A DNA stretch of 64,000 nt from Pseudorhodoplanes sp. GTDB lineage: Bacteria > Pseudomonadota > Alphaproteobacteria > Rhizobiales > Xanthobacteraceae. The stretch spans positions 4,379,730-4,443,729 of the forward strand of contig JAVSMS010000001.1 in NCBI GenBank assembly GCA_032027085.1. The letters are read 5' to 3'. The notes below the pieces were generated by a model that saw only the letters and a program-made list of their open reading frames with translations, had not been told where the DNA came from and made no database searches. Position 1 is the stretch's first letter. Each line of letters starts with the position of its first letter. The position numbers and the translations under genes are program-made. This document shows positions 13,354 through 21,304 of this stretch, in pieces.

Positions 13354-15135
13354 ATGACGAACCCGCAGATCCTCGCCTTTGCCATCCTCGCCGCGATGAT
13401 GGCGCTCTTCGTCTGGGGCCGCCTGCGCTACGACCTCGTCGCCATGCTGGCGCTGCTCGCCGCCGTGCTCGCCGGCATTGTGCCTTACAACAAGGCGTTC
13501 AGCGGCTTTTCCGACGACATCATCTTCATCGTGGCGAGCGCACTCGTGGTCAGCGCGGCGGTGGCGCGCTCCGGCGTCATTGCGACGCTGCTGCGGCCGG
13601 TCGCGCCTTGGCTCACCACGCCCACCATGCAGGTCTTCGTTCTTTCCGCCGCGGTCGCCGCGCTGTCCGGCTTTGTGAAGAATATCGGCGCGCTCGCCAT
13701 GCTGATGCCGGTCGCCTTCCAGCTCGCGCGCAAAAGCAACACACCGCCCTCCGCGCTGCTGATGCCGATGGCCTTCGGCTCGCTGCTTGGCGGCATCGTC
13801 ACCCTGATCGGTACGTCGCCCAACATTCTGGTTTCGCGCGTGCGCCACGAGCAGATCGGCGAGCCCTTCGCCATGTTCGACTTTGCGCCCGTCGGCGGGC
13901 TGCTGGCGATCGGCGGCGTCGCTTTTCTCGCCTTCGGCTGGCGGCTGTTGCCGGAACGCAAGGGTGCCGCCTCGATGGACGACGCCTTCACCATGGAAGG
14001 CTACACCACCGAGGTCAGCGTGCCGGAAAAATCCGACATCGCCGGCAAGACCGTGAAGGAGCTGGAAGCGCTCGGCGACGGCGACATCGAGGTGATCGCG
14101 CTGTTGCGGCGGCGCCAGCGCAATTCGGCGCCGTCCGGCAACATGAAACTGCGCGAAGGCGATATTCTCATCCTGCAGGGTGAATCCGAGGCCCTGGAGA
14201 AGATCGTCAGCGCCGCGAAGCTGACGGTCGTGCGCGACGATGCAACCAAGGAAACCGATACGCCGTCCGACGATATCGGCGTGATGGAAGCAATCGTGAC
14301 GCCGGATTCGGCCGTCACCGATGCGACGCCGCAGCAATTGCGGCTCTATGACAACCACCACGTCAATGTTCTGGCGGTGAGCCGCCGCGGCCGGCGCATC
14401 TCCAGCCAGTTGCGGCATGTGCGTTTCCAGCCCGGCGATGTCATCATGCTGCAGGGCGATCTGACGCGCATGCCGGAGACACTCGGCGAATTGCGGCTGT
14501 TGCCGCTGGCGGAACGGGGTTTGCAATTCGCCACCGGCCGCCGCGGGCTCCTGCCGGTCCTGGTTCTGATCGCCGCCATGGCGCTGGTCGCCACCGGCCT
14601 CTTGCCGGTGGCCTTCGCCTTTGTCGCCGCCGCCGTGACGACGGTTTTGCTGAAGACCATCACCTTGCGCGAGGCCTATGACGCGATCGAATGGCCGATC
14701 CTAGTGATGCTAGGCGCGCTCATTCCGGTATCGGATTCCTTGCGCACCACCGGCGGCACCGATGTGCTCGCCGGCTGGCTGGCGGCCATCGCCGATGCGC
14801 TGCCGCCGGCCGGCACCCTGACGCTGATCATGGTGGCGGCGATGGCGGTCACGCCGTTTCTCAACAACGCCGCGACCGTGCTGGTGATGGGCCCGATCGC
14901 GGCGACCTTTGCGAAAAGTCTCGGACTGTCGCCCGATCCCTTCCTGATGGCGGTGGCGATCGGCGCCGCCTGCGATTTCCTCACCCCGATCGGGCACCAG
15001 TCCAACACCCTGGTCATGGGCGCCGGCGGCTATCGCTTCACCGATTACTGGAAGCTCGGCTTGCCGTTGTCGGTTTACGTCATCATCATCGGCGTGCCGC
15101 TGATCGCCTGGTTCTGGCCGCTGGTGCCGCGCTGA
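13354..15135 (+). CDS. SLC13/DASS-type permease with two RCK-C domains
   Basis: Inner-membrane anion:Na+ symporter-like permease of 593 residues. The first half has several membrane segments ending in the substrate-loop motif LIGTSPNILVS. A soluble insertion (about residues 215-380) contains two TrkA-C/RCK-C modules, each ending in a signature such as LREGDILILQGESEALEKI and FQPGDVIMLQGDLTRMPE. The second half repeats the transport fold, with TPFLNNAATVLVMGPIA and LTPIGHQSNTLVMGAGGY. Relatives with this layout are annotated as sulfate, dicarboxylate or citrate transporters. The RCK-C modules may sense a ligand. The actual substrate cannot be inferred here, and no sulfur or dicarboxylate gene is next to it. 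Confidence 0.85.
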   Translation: MTNPQILAFAILAAMMALFVWGRLRYDLVAMLALLAAVLAGIVPYNKAFSGFSDDIIFIVASALVVSAAVARSGVIATLLRPVAPWLTTPTMQVFVLSAAVAALSGFVKNIGALAMLMPVAFQLARKSNTPPSALLMPMAFGSLLGGIVTLIGTSPNILVSRVRHEQIGEPFAMFDFAPVGGLLAIGGVAFLAFGWRLLPERKGAASMDDAFTMEGYTTEVSVPEKSDIAGKTVKELEALGDGDIEVIALLRRRQRNSAPSGNMKLREGDILILQGESEALEKIVSAAKLTVVRDDATKETDTPSDDIGVMEAIVTPDSAVTDATPQQLRLYDNHHVNVLAVSRRGRRISSQLRHVRFQPGDVIMLQGDLTRMPETLGELRLLPLAERGLQFATGRRGLLPVLVLIAAMALVATGLLPVAFAFVAAAVTTVLLKTITLREAYDAIEWPILVMLGALIPVSDSLRTTGGTDVLAGWLAAIADALPPAGTLTLIMVAAMAVTPFLNNAATVLVMGPIAATFAKSLGLSPDPFLMAVAIGAACDFLTPIGHQSNTLVMGAGGYRFTDYWKLGLPLSVYVIIIGVPLIAWFWPLVPR

Positions 15136-15146
15136 CCTGCGATGAG

Positions 15147-16160
15147 CTACGTCGGCGTCAGTTTCATCTGCGCCAGCGCCGCGCGGCCGACGAGGCCATA
15201 GGGATTGGCCAGGGTCTCAACAAGCTCGAAATGATTGTAGCCCTCCCCGACCAAGAGCTCGACCGGCTTGCCTGCCTTCTTCACGGCCGCGGCAAAGTCG
15301 CGCGACTGGCGCTGGAATTCCGGCGTCTCCAATGTGCCGTGGGCGATAATCACCGGCCTGTTGAGCTTGTCCAGATGGCGTTGCGAGGACATCGCATGTT
15401 CCATGTCGTCGGTGAACTTCACATAGGATGAGCGCGCCGACAGCCGCACCGGCTTCAGGTCATACATGCCCGAGACCAGCACCGCGCCTTTCACAACATC
15501 CTTCGGCAGGGCGTAGTCCTTTTCCCAATCCGTCACCATCACCACGCCACCAAGATGGCCGCCGGAGGAATGGCCGGACATGTAGATGCGGTCGGGGTCG
15601 CCGCCGAAACTTTTCGCATTCTTGTAGATCCAGGCGATACCATCGCGGCATTGCTTCGCCATCGGCAGCAGATCGCCCTTGGTCTCCACCACATTGGTGA
15701 AATCGAGCGCGATATAATGCGCGCCGGCATTCACGAACATTTCGGCCGGGAATGAATAGCTCTGCGCCGTGCCGCCGCGCCAGGCGCCGCCATGCAGGAA
15801 GACATGGATCGGCGCGTTCGGTTTCTTGGCGGGGAACAGGTCGGCGCCCTCTACTTGCGACGATCCATAGGAGAGACGTTTTGGCTCGCCGATGCGCTTG
15901 CGCGTCTCGGCGGAATTCGTCGCATAGCGTTTCACGATCTGCGGCAGGTTCGGCGCGTATTTGATCTGGTCGTAGGCGTCGTCGAGTTCCTTCTGGTCCA
16001 TGTTCATCCAGACCAGCGGCCCCTTCTCGCGCGCTGCGGGTGTCGCCGGCTGCTGCGCTGCGGCGGGAAAAGTCGAAGCGGTAAGAACGGTTGCCGCGGT
16101 TCCGGCCATCATGGTGCGGCGATTGACCGCCGTGTCGAATGCCTGATGAAGCTTTGTCAT
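15147..16160 (-). CDS. Tat-exported alpha/beta hydrolase (esterase/lipase, kynurenine-formamidase-like)
   Basis: Alpha/beta-hydrolase of 337 residues. The N-terminus has a twin-arginine signal (NRRTMMAGTAATVL followed by a cleavage site near AAAQQ), so it is probably exported folded to the periplasm. The oxyanion-hole motif HVFLHGGAW, the nucleophile elbow GHSSGGH and the late histidine in GEGYNHFE mark a serine esterase of the hormone-sensitive-lipase/BD-FAE type. GAGGAGGG lies just ahead of ATG 16160; the in-frame ATG at 16175 overlaps that ribosome binding site and is unlikely. It lies 51 bases downstream of nrsF on the same strand and may belong to the sigma-F operon. Substrate unknown. 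Confidence 0.82.
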   Translation of the reverse strand: MTKLHQAFDTAVNRRTMMAGTAATVLTASTFPAAAQQPATPAAREKGPLVWMNMDQKELDDAYDQIKYAPNLPQIVKRYATNSAETRKRIGEPKRLSYGSSQVEGADLFPAKKPNAPIHVFLHGGAWRGGTAQSYSFPAEMFVNAGAHYIALDFTNVVETKGDLLPMAKQCRDGIAWIYKNAKSFGGDPDRIYMSGHSSGGHLGGVVMVTDWEKDYALPKDVVKGAVLVSGMYDLKPVRLSARSSYVKFTDDMEHAMSSQRHLDKLNRPVIIAHGTLETPEFQRQSRDFAAAVKKAGKPVELLVGEGYNHFELVETLANPYGLVGRAALAQMKLTPT

Positions 16161-16211
16161 GGCGTCCCTCCTCATTGCGCGGAAGGGAATTATCTCGCCG
16201 CCGGCGTGCGC

Positions 16212-16850
16212 CTACCAGCGCAGAATGCGCGAACCCAGCAATGCGCCGATTGCGGTCACGATGACGATCGCAAGCGTGAACCAGGCGGCGACGAAAATCG
16301 GCGAGTCATCGGGACAATGTGAAATGTAAAGCGTCGCCGACAGCGCGCCGGAGAGCAGCCCCGCCGCCGCGCCCGCGAGCGCCGGCCGCGTCGGCGCCCC
16401 GTAACGCAAGCCGAACAGGATGGCCGCCAGCATCGGCAAGGCCAGCAGCACCATGTTCATCACGCAGACATACCAATGCACGCCTGCGAGCCGCACCAGC
16501 CATTCGCTGCGCGGCACCATCATCAATTCGACCGCCAGCGCGGCCACCATGATTGCGGGAACTGCCGCTGCAACCCAAACTGCTGATCGCGCCGACGATC
16601 CCGGTCGCGCCAGCCGCAGCACCATCGCCGCCGCCGCGATCACCAGCAGCCCCATTTCCAGCGGCTTCAGCATGAAGGGCAGCGACATCATCGCGCCGGC
16701 GAGATTGGGCCGCAGCCCGACCCAGAGCGCAAACAGCACCACCGACACGGCCAAACCGGCGAGCGCCGCCAGCCCCAGCGCAAGACCGGGCGCAGGTCCG
16801 GCCGGTTTGCGGTCCGCCGCCAAAGCACGAATGAGATCGTCGGTCCTCAT
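16212..16850 (-). CDS. nrsF: NrsF-type membrane anti-sigma factor (DUF1109)
   Basis: Inner-membrane anti-sigma factor of the DUF1109/NrsF family, 212 residues with about six hydrophobic segments and a short cytoplasmic N-terminus ([13 protein letters not shown]). In Caulobacter, NrsF holds the ECF sigma factor SigF at the membrane and releases it under heavy-metal stress, a response that needs two conserved cysteines. Two cysteines are present here at residues 129 (HWYVCVMN) and 179 ([10 protein letters not shown]), close to the Caulobacter positions as I recall them. The start overlaps the stop of sigF by 4 bases (ATGA), so the two are translationally coupled. Confidence 0.9.
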
Positions 16851-17392
16851 GTCTCCCGTCCGTGTCGCTTGGCGAGCGAGGCCAGTCCGCGATGCAGCGC
16901 CACCCGCACCGCGCCTTCGTTCATCTTCAAGTGACTAGCGGTCTCGGAGATCGAATGGCCATCAACGGCGATGCATTGCACCACGTCGCGCTGGCGCGCC
17001 GGCAGGCCCGCGAGCGAGCGGCTGATCTCGCTGTCACGGCCCGGCTCCGGCCCCTCCTCCGCCGCCAGCACATCGGCAAAATCATCCACCGGTACTTCGA
17101 TGCGGCCGCCGCGGCGGCGCAAGGCGTCGATCATCTTGTAGCGCGCGATCGCATACAGCCACGGCCCCACCGGGCGGCTGTCGTCCCAGGTCTGCCGTTT
17201 CAGGTGCACCGCGATCAGGATCTCCTGCACCACGTCCTCCGTCTCGGCCTCGCGGCCGGCGCGGGCAAGGCCGCGCCGCACATAGGCCCGCAAGGCGCGC
17301 GCGAATTCCTGCAGGCAAGCGTTATAGGCCGCCCCGTCGCCGGCATTCGCCTGCCGCATCCAGGCGGCCCATCGCACTTCGCGTTCAGTCAC
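16847..17392 (-). CDS. sigF: ECF RNA polymerase sigma factor SigF
   Basis: Extracytoplasmic-function sigma factor of the SigF group, 181 residues. Region 2 is [17 protein letters not shown] through [16 protein letters not shown] and [19 protein letters not shown]; region 4 contains [18 protein letters not shown] and [13 protein letters not shown]. The frame is open to an ATG at 17422, but a sigma-F promoter -10 element (CGAA at 17413-17410) lies inside that extension, so I chose the GTG at 17392, which also fits the family start. It probably activates its own operon and the divergent bufferin operon, and is inhibited by the adjacent NrsF. Confidence 0.9.
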
Positions 17393-17409
17393 GCGCCGTC
17401 TTATCCCAA

Positions 17410-17435
17410 TTCGCTCCGACACCGGACATTGTTAC
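17410..17435 (-). promoter_or_regulatory. Sigma-F-type promoter of sigF-nrsF
   Basis: On the minus strand GTAACA (17435-17430), 16 bases, then CGAA (17413-17410). This fits the Caulobacter SigF consensus GTAACC-N16-CGAA and implies autoregulation. Transcription would begin near 17404, about a dozen bases before the GTG start of sigF. Confidence 0.85.
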
Positions 17436-17482
17436 ACGACGAGCGCTCACGATCACATGGACGTGAGCGCGCAGGTGAGCGC

Positions 17483-17508
17483 GTAACAGCCGGCATCGAG
17501 TCCACGAA
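17483..17508 (+). promoter_or_regulatory. Sigma-F-type promoter of the bufferin operon
   Basis: GTAACA (17483-17488), 16 bases, then CGAA (17505-17508) on the plus strand, the same motif and spacing as the divergent sigF promoter. The predicted transcript would have a leader of about 70 bases before the bufA start at 17585. Confidence 0.87.
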
Positions 17509-17584
17509 AGCTCCCATGAGGTCGGACGATCCGGCCCGGCGGCCCGCTGGCCGTTTCATTGTCTATCAGAGTGGGAGATTCTTC

Positions 17585-17869
17585 ATGAATGCCAAGATTA
17601 CCGCCGCCGCGCTCGCTGGCTCATTCGTCGCCGCCATGTCGCTGGTGGCCGCTTCCGCCGCGCCGGTCGCGCCGCAGCCCGGCAAGGACAAGTGTTACGG
17701 CATCTCCATGGCCGGCAAGAATGACTGCGCCGCCGGTCCCGGCACCACCTGCGCCGGCACCTCCAAGGTCGATTACCAGGGCAATGCCTGGAAATACGTC
17801 GACAAGGGCACCTGCGCCTCGATGAAGACCCCGAAGGGCACGGGCTCGCTGACGCCGATCAAGAGCTGA
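17585..17869 (+). CDS. bufA: Bufferin-type RiPP precursor (DUF2282, BufA1-like)
   Basis: Predicted precursor of a ribosomally made, post-translationally modified metallophore of the bufferin/GIG family (94 residues). A Sec-type signal peptide (residues 1 to about 26, ending ASAAPVA) replaces a classic leader, so the product should act in the periplasm. The mature part has four cysteines, at residues 37 ([13 protein letters not shown]), 48, 56 ([10 protein letters not shown]) and 77 ([13 protein letters not shown]), the pattern of the DUF2282 family. In characterised bufferins the partner enzyme oxidises cysteines to heterocycles and the product sequesters copper. Here that is inferred from homology. 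GGGAG precedes the ATG. A hairpin separates it from the modification genes. Confidence 0.9.
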
Positions 17870-17884
17870 TTCGGTCGTCCGGAA

Positions 17885-17914
17885 GTCATCCCTCCCCTTC
17901 AGAGGAGGGATGAC
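17885..17914 (+). terminator. Hairpin between precursor and modification genes
   Basis: GTCATCCCTCC (17885-17895) and GGAGGGATGAC (17904-17914) form a perfect 11-bp stem with an 8-base loop, starting 15 bases after the bufA stop. No long T run follows, so a partial terminator or mRNA-stabilising structure is more likely than full termination. It could give more precursor than enzyme mRNA. Confidence 0.75.
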
Positions 17915-17949
17915 CCACGCCGCCGACACGCGGTCGAGAGACAACTGAC

Positions 17950-18807
17950 ATGCTGCACCAAAGCAACCTCCCCCGCGCCGGCGGCGTCGGCTTCAAGCCG
18001 CAGCATTTCGGCGACATCATTGCAGACGAGCAGCCGATCGGCTTTGTCGAGATTCATGCCGAAAACTACATGGGCCTGGGTGGCGCGCCGCATGCGCAAT
18101 TGCGCGCCCTGTGCGAACGCTATGCATTGTCGGTGCATGGCGTGGGCCTGTCCATCGGCTCGATGGCGCCGCTCGATCTGGATCATCTCGCGCGCCTGCG
18201 CACTCTGTGCGAGCGCTATCAGCCCGCAAGCTTTTCCGAACACCTTGCCTGGTCCTCGCATGGCGACGTGTATCTGAACGATCTCCTGCCCCTGCCCTAT
18301 ACGCAGGAAACGCTCGATCGCATTGTGCAGCATGTCGATCAGGTGCAGCACACGCTGGACCGCGAGATGCTGCTGGAAAATCCGTCGACCTATCTGCAAT
18401 TCGCGGACAGCACGATCCCGGAAGCGCAATTCCTCGCCGAAATTTCCCGCCGCACCGGCTGCGGACTTCTGCTCGACATCAACAATGTCTTCGTGCAGGC
18501 GACCAATCACGGCACCAGCCCCGAGGATTACCTTTCCGCCTTTCCGCTCGAGCGGGTGAAGGAAATCCATCTCGGCGGACATGACGCGCAGCAGGACGAA
18601 ACCGGCGCACCGCTCCTGATCGACGCGCATGGATCGCCGGTCTCAGATCCGGTCTGGGCACTATATGCGCAGGTGATCGCACAACGCGGGCCGCTGCCGA
18701 CCCTGATCGAATGGGACAATGACGTGCCCGCCTGGCCGGTGCTGGCGACACAAGCGCGCGCGGCGCAAGACATTCTGGACCGGGCCCGTCGGCAGAAGGC
18801 GGCCTGA
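17950..18807 (+). CDS. bufB: MNIO-family RiPP-modifying enzyme (DUF692, BufB-like)
   Basis: Multinuclear non-heme iron-dependent oxidative enzyme (MNIO, formerly DUF692), 285 residues, TIM-barrel fold, cytoplasmic. Conserved blocks are all present: [71 protein letters not shown] and [10 protein letters not shown]; their His, Glu, Asp and Asn residues bind the iron cluster in family members. The expected role is to oxidise cysteines of the precursor encoded just upstream, together with the DUF2063 protein encoded downstream. The next gene starts 1 base after its stop. The same fold serves other RiPP pathways, but the DUF2282 and DUF2063 context points to bufferin. Confidence 0.93.
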
Positions 18808-18808
18808 C

Positions 18809-19585
18809 ATGTTCGCCGCGCTGCAGACCGAGTTCGCCACCGCCCTGCTTGACGCCGATCGCGCGGTGCCCGGCGCGTTGACCGCGCATACATCGCGCGA
18901 GCCGGTGAGACGCTTCGCCGTCTATCGCAACAATGTGGTGGTCAGCCTGGCGAATGCACTGCGCAGCCGCTTTCCCGCTACCGAAAGGATCGTGGGCGAG
19001 GACTTCTTCTTCGCGATGGCGCGCCTGTTCGTCGCCGTGCATCCGCCGCGCTCGAAAATTCTCAGCGACTATGGCGACGAGCTGCCCGGTTTCATTGCGG
19101 CCTTCGCGCCAGCCGCAGAACTCCGCTACCTGCCTGACGTCGCGCGGCTGGAAGCCGCCCGCACCCGCGCCTACCACGCCGCCGATGCAGCGCCGGTTTC
19201 GCCGGGCGAGCTTGCCTTGCTCGATCCGGCGAAGCTCGGCGAGATACGCGTCGCCCTGCATCCCTCGCTGCAGATCGTGCGCTCACGCTTTCCCATCGTC
19301 ACCATCTGGGCGATGAATTCCGGAGAGACGCCGCTTGGCCCAGTCGATGAGACGCAAGCCGAAGATGCGCTGGTCCTGCGCCCCGCTTATGAGGTCGGCG
19401 TGCGGCGGCTGCCGCAAGGGGGCGCCGCTTTTCTGCTTGCCTTGTCCGATGGCGCGACGCTCAGCGCCGCCGCGGAAGCCGCACTCGCCGAGACCGCCGA
19501 TTTCGATCTCACCGCCAATCTCGCCGGCCTGATCGGCTCCGGCGCGATGACGGGCTTCGCCCCTTCCCAAGGAGCAACATCATGA
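18809..19585 (+). CDS. bufC: BufC-like RiPP recognition partner (DUF2063)
   Basis: DUF2063 protein of 258 residues, the usual partner of DUF692 enzymes. The N-terminal domain carries the family signature EPVRRFAVYRNNVVVSLANA, followed by RFPATERIVGEDFF and PRSKILSDYGDELPGFI. The C-terminal half (ALVLRPAYEVGVRRLPQGG) resembles the second domain seen in MNIO partner proteins, which binds and presents the precursor peptide. The ATG at 18809 lies just after the bufB stop; an in-frame reading upstream from 18719 is out-of-frame bufB sequence. The last bases overlap the doxX start by 4 (ATGA). Confidence 0.9.
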   Translation: MFAALQTEFATALLDADRAVPGALTAHTSREPVRRFAVYRNNVVVSLANALRSRFPATERIVGEDFFFAMARLFVAVHPPRSKILSDYGDELPGFIAAFAPAAELRYLPDVARLEAARTRAYHAADAAPVSPGELALLDPAKLGEIRVALHPSLQIVRSRFPIVTIWAMNSGETPLGPVDETQAEDALVLRPAYEVGVRRLPQGGAAFLLALSDGATLSAAAEAALAETADFDLTANLAGLIGSGAMTGFAPSQGATS

Positions 19586-20049
19586 GCATGCCGCTCACCG
19601 CTTCCTCACAGCCCGGCCTCGCCGGTCTGATCGCCCGCGCCAACACATTGATGTCCGCCATTCCCTACACGCTTGTGGCGCTGATCGGCCGCGTTTCCAT
19701 TGCCGCAGTGTTCTGGCGCTCCGGCCAGACCAAGCTCGACGGTTGGCACGTGTCGGAAAGCGCGATCGAATTGTTCCGCGAGGAATACAGGCTTCCGGTG
19801 ATCGATCCGACGCTCGCGGCGTATCTCGCGGCCGCGGCCGAGCACATCTTCCCGATATTGCTGCTGTTTGGCCTCGCCACCCGCTTCTCCGCGCTGGCGC
19901 TCCTGATCATGACGCTGGTGATCCAGATTTTTGTCTATCCCGATGCCTGGCCGACGCACGGCTCCTGGGCCGCAATCTTTTTGATGCTGATGGCGCAGGG
20001 CCCGGGCAAGATATCGATGGATGCGCTGATCGCGCGGTCCCAGCAATAA
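19582..20049 (+). CDS. DoxX-family membrane protein (BufD-like)
   Basis: Four-helix inner-membrane protein of the DoxX family, 155 residues. Visible segments include LVALIGRVSIAAVFWRSGQTKLDG, LAAAAEHIFPILLLFGLATRF and ALALLIMTLVIQIFVYPDAW. DoxX proteins commonly end bufferin/GIG operons; their exact job is not settled and may involve redox or metal handling at the membrane. Translational coupling to bufC through a 4-base overlap supports a role in the same system. No promoter or terminator was seen between them; the gene is convergent with hsp20. Confidence 0.87.
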   Translation: MSMPLTASSQPGLAGLIARANTLMSAIPYTLVALIGRVSIAAVFWRSGQTKLDGWHVSESAIELFREEYRLPVIDPTLAAYLAAAAEHIFPILLLFGLATRFSALALLIMTLVIQIFVYPDAWPTHGSWAAIFLMLMAQGPGKISMDALIARSQQ

Positions 20050-20100
20050 AAGTGCCCCGCGGCGATGCCGCGAGGCATCCTGCATGCGATCAAGCAGCCG

Positions 20101-20580
20101 CTATTTCGCCGGCTTGACCTCGATCTTCTTGGCCTGCGCCGGCGCCGGTTTCGGCACGGTGACTTTCAGCACGCCGTTGGCGATGGTCGCCTTCACGGCA
20201 TTGGCGTCGACACCCGCCGGCAATTCCAGGCTGCGGTAGAAGGAGCCGTAGCTGCGTTCGACCAGGCGGTAATTCTTGTCCTTCTCTTCCTTCTCGGCTT
20301 TCTTTTCGCCGCGGATGGTCAGGACATTGTCGGACAAGTCGATCTGCACGTCCTTCTCTTCCAGCCCCGGCAGTTCCGCGGTGATTTCGATCTCCTTGTC
20401 GGTCTCCACCACGTCGGTTGCCGGCATCAGACCCTTGGTCTCAAGCGATCCAAAGGACGGAAACCGTCCGAAATCCTCCAGCATGCGGTCCAGCTCCCGG
20501 TGCAGCCCAGCAAACGGATGAAAGCTCTGGCCAACAGCGCTGCGGTCGCGGGCAATAGGGATGAGGGATTTCAATGACAT
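20101..20580 (-). CDS. Small heat-shock protein (Hsp20/alpha-crystallin family)
   Basis: ATP-independent holdase chaperone, 159 residues. The alpha-crystallin domain runs from about residue 50 (MPATDVVETDKEIEITAELPG) to ATIANGVLKVTVPK with the family A-x-x-x-n-GVL motif. A short C-terminal tail has an I-x-V motif (KKIEVKPAK) used for oligomer contacts. GGAGGTG precedes the ATG at 20580, which I preferred over an upstream in-frame start at 20613. A perfect FNR/FixK-type palindrome lies 71 bases upstream of the start, so low-oxygen control is more likely than heat control alone. Confidence 0.92.
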   Translation of the reverse strand: MSLKSLIPIARDRSAVGQSFHPFAGLHRELDRMLEDFGRFPSFGSLETKGLMPATDVVETDKEIEITAELPGLEEKDVQIDLSDNVLTIRGEKKAEKEEKDKNYRLVERSYGSFYRSLELPAGVDANAVKATIANGVLKVTVPKPAPAQAKKIEVKPAK

Positions 20581-20650
20581 GAACACCTCCATTCGGCAAA
20601 CGCCGCTCCTCACGGCAGGTACTATCTGTCACCACCGCACTGTGGCCGCT

Positions 20651-20664
20651 TTGATCGGCATCAA
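20651..20664 (-). promoter_or_regulatory. FNR/FixK-type box upstream of hsp20
   Basis: TTGATCGGCATCAA is a perfect TTGAT-N4-ATCAA palindrome. On the minus strand a weak -10 (GATAGT, 20626-20621) lies at the distance expected of a class II FNR/FixK-activated promoter, with the start of transcription near 20614. Confidence 0.75.
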
Positions 20665-20809
20665 AACTATCAATGCGCGCCGGCCCACATCTTCCCGGAT
20701 TCGATCGTCGCGCCCGACACCAGCTCGATCCAGACAAGATGATCCCGTACGCGCGGTGCAATATTTCAAACGCACCGGCGGCTGAATAAGCGAGGGGTGA
20801 GTTTCGCCG

Positions 20810-21304
20810 CTATTTCGCGCGTGGCCGTGTCCCGCCAGGCACATCCATCGCCGCATGTCCGCGATGCTCGGCGATGTTTTGATACATCTTGCGCAGCACG
20901 CTTTTCACCAGGGCGATGTCCTTTTCCGGCAGATTGCCGAAGGCGACCTCCTCGTCGGCGAGCATTTTCGGCACCAGATCCTCGACGACGCCGACACCTT
21001 TCTTGGTCAGCCGCACCGTCACCTCGCGGTTGTTGGTGTTCGACCGCGTGCGCGTGACGAAGCCTTTCTTCGCCGCGCCGGTGATCAGCCGCGACACCGT
21101 CGGCGGATCGAGACTGGTCGCTTCCGCCAGATCGATCTGCCGCATCTCGCCGCGATGCGCGAGCACCGCCAACATGCGCCAGAGCGGAATGGTGAGATGG
21201 AAATGCTTCAGCCCGGGCGAGGCGAAATCCACCATCGCGGCGCCGACGCGGTTGATCAGAAAGGGCAGCCGGTCGGTCAGGTCGTAGATCTTGCGGGACG
21301 TCAC
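20810..21304 (-). CDS. MarR-family transcriptional regulator
   Basis: Winged-helix repressor of the MarR family, 164 residues. The HTH is IDLAEATSLDPPTVSRLITGAAKKG and the wing carries VTRTRSNTNNREVTVRLTKKG, with the conserved Asn/Arg region of the wing. Ligand unknown. The frame stays open to 21400, but a promoter with a perfect TTGACA (21360-21355) and CAGAAT (21338-21333) places the transcript start near 21326, so the GTG at 21304 is preferred. It diverges from a flavin reductase/monooxygenase pair, which it probably controls. Confidence 0.82.
   Translation of the reverse strand: MTSRKIYDLTDRLPFLINRVGAAMVDFASPGLKHFHLTIPLWRMLAVLAHRGEMRQIDLAEATSLDPPTVSRLITGAAKKGFVTRTRSNTNNREVTVRLTKKGVGVVEDLVPKMLADEEVAFGNLPEKDIALVKSVLRKMYQNIAEHRGHAAMDVPGGTRPRAK

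Follow-up and report, generated by a model that had tools for sequence, protein, structure and literature searches.

A 64,000-nucleotide stretch of the Pseudorhodoplanes sp. genome (GenBank assembly GCA_032027085.1, contig JAVSMS010000001.1; hereafter the window) carries, at positions 16212-20049, two divergent operons, nrsF-sigF on the minus strand and bufA-bufB-bufC-doxX on the plus strand, which by gene content and promoter sequence form a sigma-F-controlled Buf1 bufferin cluster. The class is already known, and the genus is newly added to it. We describe two further elements of the cluster, an RNA hairpin that follows the precursor gene bufA and a short DNA dyad beside the output promoters, and propose a model in which a second DNA-binding protein acts at the dyad. 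We put the probability of this model as a whole at about 0.85. The six genes had been recognized in an original prediction made from the letters of the sequence; the promoters, the dyad, the hairpin and the conservation of these elements in relatives are additions made here. Bufferins are a widespread, recently described family of copper-protection peptides. The gene cluster itself is unsurprising; what merits further attention is the dyad.

All six genes placed in this divergent unit by the original prediction were found, and each exceeded the Pfam gathering score of its own family (scores are given as bits/cut-off, the cut-off being the gathering score for Pfam and the model cut-off for NCBIfam). 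nrsF (16212-16850, minus strand) encodes an NrsF-family anti-sigma factor of 212 residues (PF06532, 194.4/26.8), whose cysteines Cys129 and Cys179 are kept in 32/32 and 31/31 of the relatives that cover each position, among 37 NrsF matches. It overlaps by 4 bases with sigF (16847-17392, minus strand), which encodes an extracytoplasmic function (ECF) sigma factor of 181 residues with Sigma70_r2 (46.6/24) and Sigma70_r4_2 (40.9/25.7) domains and a match to NF009165 (258.9/198). On the plus strand, bufA (17585-17869) encodes a Buf1 (DUF2282) precursor of 94 residues (PF10048, 85.8/22.4). Its N-terminus has a typical signal-peptide-like sequence, as judged by eye, and the four cysteines ascribed to it lie at positions 37, 48, 56 and 77, each kept in 103/103 relatives with a bufA match; BufA itself matched no NCBIfam model. 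bufB (17950-18807) encodes the MNIO bufferin maturase (MbnB_TglH_ChrH, PF05114, 355/25), which passes the NCBIfam model MNIO_BufB (NF050167, 383.8/310), retains the conserved H/D/E/N residues and has homologues of solved structure (3bww, 8hci, 7dz9). bufC (18809-19585) encodes the DUF2063 partner protein of MNIO (PF09836, 88.8/27.2), for which no Protein Data Bank (PDB) match was found at E up to 1, and doxX (19582-20049) a DoxX membrane protein (PF07681, 71.6/23.6). The 1-base gap between bufB and bufC and the 4-base overlap of bufC with doxX are as originally described. Searches with DUF2282, MNIO, DUF2063 and NrsF models, suggested at the time as a check, were all passed, and chance or artefact as the source of the genes was rejected on the strength of Pfam matches above gathering scores.

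The assignment to Buf1 agrees with Pfam, with NCBIfam and with the published description of Buf1 clusters (PMC12452194). Other MNIO proteins, namely MbnB of methanobactin synthesis, ApyH and ChrH, share a superfamily with BufB, which lies far below their NCBIfam cut-offs (50/325, 88/400 and 48/600). A methanobactin type was rejected on the score of BufB against the MbnB model (49.8 vs 325 bits). An HvfABCX/oxazolin type was likewise rejected: the DUF2282 precursor is without EGKCG, as judged by eye, and the narrower models HvfB (242/360), HvfC (34/142) and HvfX (57/80) were matched below their cut-offs, as was AntiSigF_NrsF (NF042994, 150/300). Two Rfam matches were obtained at E up to 0.5 in the region 15000-21000, both far below gathering scores.

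Sigma-F control, also part of the original prediction, is borne out by promoter sequence. GTAAC-N17-CGAA is matched exactly at only two places in the 64 kb, both in the divergent gap, one before sigF-nrsF (17410-17435, minus strand) and one before bufABC-doxX (17483-17508, plus strand). The published form, GTAAC(C)-N16-CGAA upstream of sigF and its targets, is what is found here. The sigma-F -10 element (17410-17413) falls downstream of GTG 17422, where the open frame listed for sigF begins; the start is therefore more likely GTG 17392, a correction that follows from the position of the predicted promoter.

To place these elements in a wider context, 109 loci were fetched. Three were dropped for want of a bufA match (L035, L036 and L095) and three because their upstream DNA was the same as that of other loci (L011, L013 and L014, identical there to L041, L042 and L045); no further repeats were found. 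With the window, this left 104 loci, 36 with a divergent sigF (35 fetched plus the window) and 68 without an adjacent sigF. Because expected counts come from mononucleotide shuffles and the loci share ancestry, the dyad counts given below show enrichment and not independent events. In the divergent loci, a promoter with CGAA or CGTA as its -10 was present on the bufA side in 35/36, on the sigF side in 33/36 and on both in 32/36, and four other tetramers tried as -10 elements gave 0 matches. The bufA-side -10 was CGAA in 23 loci and CGTA in 13, one locus having both. Nine of the 13 CGTA-type loci belong to Shinella or Rhizobium, and for the CGTA type as a whole a switch of sigma-F specificity is possible. 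Without an adjacent sigF, CGAA was found in 6 loci and CGTA in 2 of the 68, control tetramers also reaching up to 2. The sigma-F promoters, near-universal in divergent loci and rare elsewhere, thus travel with sigF. As a separate observation, five Rhizobium-type loci (L051, L052, L059, L061 and L072) carry, in tandem, another bufA-like match in the interval from sigF to bufA.

Between the two promoters of the window lies a perfect inverted repeat of 28 bp (17443-17470; 9-bp arms, 10-bp spacer), a candidate operator that encloses the dyad TCAC-N6-GTGA (17453-17466). A 9-bp dyad arose by chance in 53/2000 shuffles of the 224-base region and in 8/2000 of the 47-base interval that separates the two -35 boxes, and the version of the repeat with 8-bp arms has a single exact match in the genome. 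The whole repeat was rejected as the operator, as its long arms are not kept in relatives; the claim was narrowed to the inner TCAC-N6-GTGA because that part alone recurs. An extra GTGAGCGC copy (17475-17482, plus strand) abuts the bufA -35 box, where it forms a half-site at the standard position.

An exhaustive count of dyads with 4-bp arms in the 23 inter-promoter segments whose limits could be set, window included, found strict TCAC-N6-GTGA in 9 of them against 0.02 expected, and in 200 shuffles of these segments the commonest dyad never exceeded 3. The relaxed form [AT]CAC-N6-GTG[AT] occurs upstream of bufA in 41/104 loci, window included, against about 1.6 by shuffling; other spacer lengths (2-5 and 7-10) gave 0 to 4 loci. 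The relaxed dyad is enriched both in divergent loci (16/36 vs 0.56 expected; maximum 3 in 300 shuffles) and in loci without an adjacent sigF (25/68 vs 1.01; maximum 5 in 300 shuffles), and it is present in 15 of the 23 loci whose bufA promoter is of the CGAA type. Its position also differs between the two sides of the gap. On the bufA side, 11/35 loci have a dyad that stops 4-5 bp short of the -35; on the sigF side 0/33 do, and five dyads there lie at 10-17 bp. In the 50 loci of the series L063-L120, which are mostly Rhodobacterales and have no adjacent sigF, GTGA half-sites recur in pairs, such as CACG-N5-GTGA (26 loci) and GTGA-N11-GTGA (19 loci), where 30 shuffles reached at most 5. From these data we infer that a second DNA-binding protein acts at the dyad beside the output promoters. 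The dyad was not found in the literature searched under the wording "TCAC-N6-GTGA". In locus L187 an open frame resembling an XRE-type regulator, as judged by eye, stands directly before the dyad site, and is a lead only.

We then asked how the dyad and the promoter are distributed together, using the composite pattern [AT]CAC-N6-GTG[AT]-N5-GTAAC-N17-CGAA. It was found in 2/385 genomes of the class (reversed pattern, 0) and in 16/149 genomes of the family (reversed pattern, 1). One of the two class matches (L122) and seven of the 16 family matches stand at nrsF-sigF/bufABC loci; five of those seven are new, and two (L129 and L136) are the discovery sites L015 and L047. Other family matches precede a gene for a TIGR04282-like glycosyltransferase in six genomes of one genus (L137-L142), a methylthioribose-kinase-like gene in two cases and a hydrolase-like gene in one, the last two assigned by eye. 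One of the glycosyltransferase-like proteins scored 132.7 against the TIGR04282 cut-off of 134 bits, and a radical-SAM motif follows the gene in 5 of the 6 stretches. The second class match (L121) precedes a gene for a YHS-domain protein, and the bufA promoter of the same genome has a dyad at a gap of 4 (L154). NrsF is present in all 16 family genomes with the composite, the base rate being 102/149 (lists compared by hand). Twelve genomes searched for NrsF gave 16 loci, 13 of them with a sigma-F promoter before sigF; in these genomes, which were picked by the composite, a dyad at a gap of 4-5 was found at 0/13 sigF promoters and at all three bufA promoters. In genomes G025 and G473 the composite lies about 8 kb from nrsF, and G025 is without a bufB-like match. 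Two side observations belong here. In stretch L186, from the glycosyltransferase genus, two nrsF genes, each with an adjoining sigma factor gene, lie at distances of about 10 and 14 kb from the composite. Stretch L121, from a distant member of the class, has two sigma-F-type motifs about 1.2 kb apart, and the one without a dyad precedes a frame resembling a YedE-type transporter, as judged by eye.

Of the 20 exact sigma-F motifs in the genome to which the window belongs (4.97 Mb in one contig), only three have a dyad within 40 bp: the two buf-region motifs, sharing a single dyad, and the motif of msrPQ. The chance of a dyad is about 0.0013 per 40 bases. At the msrPQ site (L194, 3474600-3475700) the dyad stands at a gap of 4, the site is 98 bases before MsrP, and MsrQ follows directly. 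msrPQ played no part in defining the dyad, and in Caulobacter it has been reported as a target of sigma-F and of copper (PMC3511200, PMC8224329); it is a probable second member of the sigma-F regulon in this genome. Of eight motif regions examined, seven had their sites inside open frames of more than 150 codons, that of msrP included, so that overlap with an open frame did not separate these motif sites. A stricter dyad pattern has three sites in this genome besides buf, and for one of them (L126) no evident metal gene was seen among the flanking open reading frames.

The second added element is an intercistronic RNA hairpin between bufA and bufB (17885-17914, plus strand), with an 11-bp stem and a z of -2.89; an equally stable structure was obtained in 1/200 shuffles. 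In 103 of the 104 sequences, selected by distance and length limits, the bufA-bufB gap has a mean z of -2.35, with z < -2 in 61/103. With G-U pairs counted, stems of 9 bp or longer were found in 81/103 loci, window included, against 75/1030 shuffles. The hairpin probably allows the bufA transcript to exceed that of bufBC-doxX. In the literature searched, no paper pairing MNIO with a stem-loop was found under that wording.

Taken together, these elements suggest the following model. At rest, NrsF would keep SigF at the inner membrane, and attack by metal on the two conserved NrsF cysteines would free it. Freed SigF would transcribe sigF-nrsF and bufABC-doxX from the divergent GTAAC-N17-CGAA promoters, and probably msrPQ. 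BufB and BufC would convert Cys48 and Cys56 of BufA into copper-binding heterocycles, with Cys37 and Cys77 forming a disulphide, and BufA, exported by Sec, would buffer periplasmic copper. The hairpin after bufA would probably raise the precursor over the enzyme, and the second DNA-binding protein would act at the [AT]CAC-N6-GTG[AT] dyad of the output promoters, those of buf and msrPQ. For this organism, the NrsF-SigF switch, the induction by metal, and the chemistry and metal of the BufA product are carried over from relatives, in which they are known or have been proposed. A bolder version of the proposal holds that a factor hitherto undescribed binds the 14-bp dyad at a fixed distance behind the sigma-F output promoters and not behind that of sigF, forming a two-input gate for copper defence. 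This factor would be the older or more widespread bufferin regulator, with sigma-F exchangeable, because the dyad is retained at the bufferin genes of lineages that lack a neighbouring sigma-F module. We would give even odds to this version.

A number of observations weigh against the model, most of them against the dyad. The relaxed dyad is absent from 63/104 loci, including all 13 of the CGTA type (L016, L034, L046, L048-L053, L055, L059, L061 and L072). In the window itself the full dyad is separated from the -35 boxes by 16 bp (bufA) and 17 bp (sigF) and could therefore serve either gene, with only a GTGA half-site in the usual place; the N5 composite has no match in this genome. Nine of the 16 family composite matches are not at bufferin genes. 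When open reading frames of 80 loci were clustered, the top 25 clusters, inspected by eye, comprised the bufferin genes themselves, sigF/nrsF and neighbouring genes, none of them an evident regulator. The shuffle expectations, applied to sequences that are kin, overstate significance. With one mismatch allowed, the promoter pattern is no commoner in the window than by chance (10 vs a shuffle mean of 6.4), and in the whole genome the 20 exact motifs are fewer than the 32 of the reversed pattern; a sigma-F regulon drawn up by motif alone was rejected. The Caulobacter literature adds further points. There, CC3254 (bufA) is reported to be solely sigma-F regulated, sigF is not strongly autoregulated under chromium or cadmium, and the second regulator proposed acts at sigF from -37 to +37 (PMC3511200) and not at this dyad; the idea that the dyad is the site of this "unknown regulator" was rejected for that reason.

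In a rival reading, the locus would be a plain sigma-F bufferin operon of the Caulobacter type, in which the dyad is incidental or related to sigma-F itself, for example as an upstream contact of the holoenzyme. The reported sole regulation of Caulobacter bufA by sigma-F and the absence of the dyad from most loci, including all of the CGTA type, speak for such an operon, but the dyad is symmetric, has a fixed spacing that is confined to the output side and recurs at msrPQ. It is also enriched in the 68 loci without an adjacent sigF, only 8 of which have a CGAA or CGTA motif. On balance we consider an incidental or sigma-F-related dyad rather unlikely and favour a separate protein at that site.

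The role of the peptide and that of the hairpin can each be read in another way. The peptide could handle some other metal or stress (cadmium, chromate, gold, sulfur or an oxidant), copper being secondary. In this direction point the induction of the Caulobacter locus by chromium and cadmium (PMC3511200), the gig cluster of Cupriavidus, which responds to gold, silver and copper and has no effect on copper resistance (PMC8224329), and the partner target msrPQ, which repairs oxidised proteins. However, loss of sigF in Caulobacter impairs growth in copper and not in chromium or cadmium (PMC8224329), and Buf1 peptides are described as copper-sequestering (PMC12452194), which makes a principal role other than copper buffering improbable. 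We think it less probable still that the hairpin is an intrinsic terminator, with bufBC-doxX under a separate promoter. Its stem is stable and recurs at the same gap in most loci, but in the window no T run follows it, and it is not listed by a terminator scan that returned 7 terminator-like pattern sites in 16000-20300 against 2.4 expected. The single sigma-70-like match in the same interval is on the opposite strand, and CC3254-CC3257 are described as one transcription unit (PMC3511200). A hairpin that adjusts the ratio of precursor to enzyme is the reading we retain.

Around the cluster, the window carries a CitMHS/TrkA_C transporter gene (13354-15135, plus strand) and a gene for an esterase-like hydrolase (15147-16175, minus strand) on one side and an Hsp20 gene (20101-20613, minus strand) on the other. 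A terminator-like hairpin (20053-20077, minus strand), a pattern match alone, lies between the convergent doxX and hsp20, and its run of T faces hsp20. L041 alone matched the three flanking genes, among those fetched loci whose length would have revealed them. The closest relatives of BufB are from Pseudorhodoplanes metagenome-assembled genomes (82% and 78% identity), one of which is L041. In about 30 loci of the series L063-L120, mostly Rhodobacterales, the bufferin cluster adjoins a threonyl-tRNA-synthetase-like gene, as judged by eye, which suggests long vertical inheritance there.

The recurrence of the dyad at bufferin and msrPQ output promoters provides a short, testable DNA bait for the missing regulator. 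Possession of a common dyad also points to a possible link, beyond the sigma factor, of copper buffering with methionine-sulfoxide repair.

Among known systems, the gene content of the locus is the same as that of the Buf1 clusters described by Antoine et al. 2025 (PMC12452194), which consist of DUF2282, MNIO, DUF2063, DoxX, a sigma factor and NrsF, and whose peptides have the central two cysteines modified and the outer two linked by a disulphide; the main text of that paper makes no mention of a promoter, hairpin, operator or terminator. The gig/dax cluster of Cupriavidus metallidurans and the GIG operon of Legionella are related and are induced by gold, silver or copper (PMC8224329, PMC5413113); a word search of the text of PMC5413113 returned neither "inverted repeat" nor "palindrom". 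In the literature cited here, we did not find an account of how bufferin clusters without an adjacent sigF/NrsF are controlled.

The nearest counterpart is Caulobacter CC3252-CC3257, which has the same gene content and order, in keeping with the earlier view of the present locus as a new member and not a new class. The two share the six families, the divergent order, the promoter type and the two conserved NrsF cysteines. Sigma-F control, experiments on NrsF and SigF, and induction by chromium and cadmium have been published for the Caulobacter locus (PMC3511200), as has induction of all six genes by copper, in which a sigF::Tn5 mutant grows poorly (PMC8224329). The statement in the original prediction that equivalent loci are induced by metal is thus upheld by this syntenic locus. 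The two differ in that no dyad is reported in the text of PMC3511200, a comparison made by publication only. They differ also in number: Caulobacter has a second Buf1 cluster, CC2905-2907 (PMC3511200), whereas the present genome has a single bufferin cluster, with one BufB-like match, one DUF2282 and one NrsF, and its genetics should for this reason be simpler than in Caulobacter.

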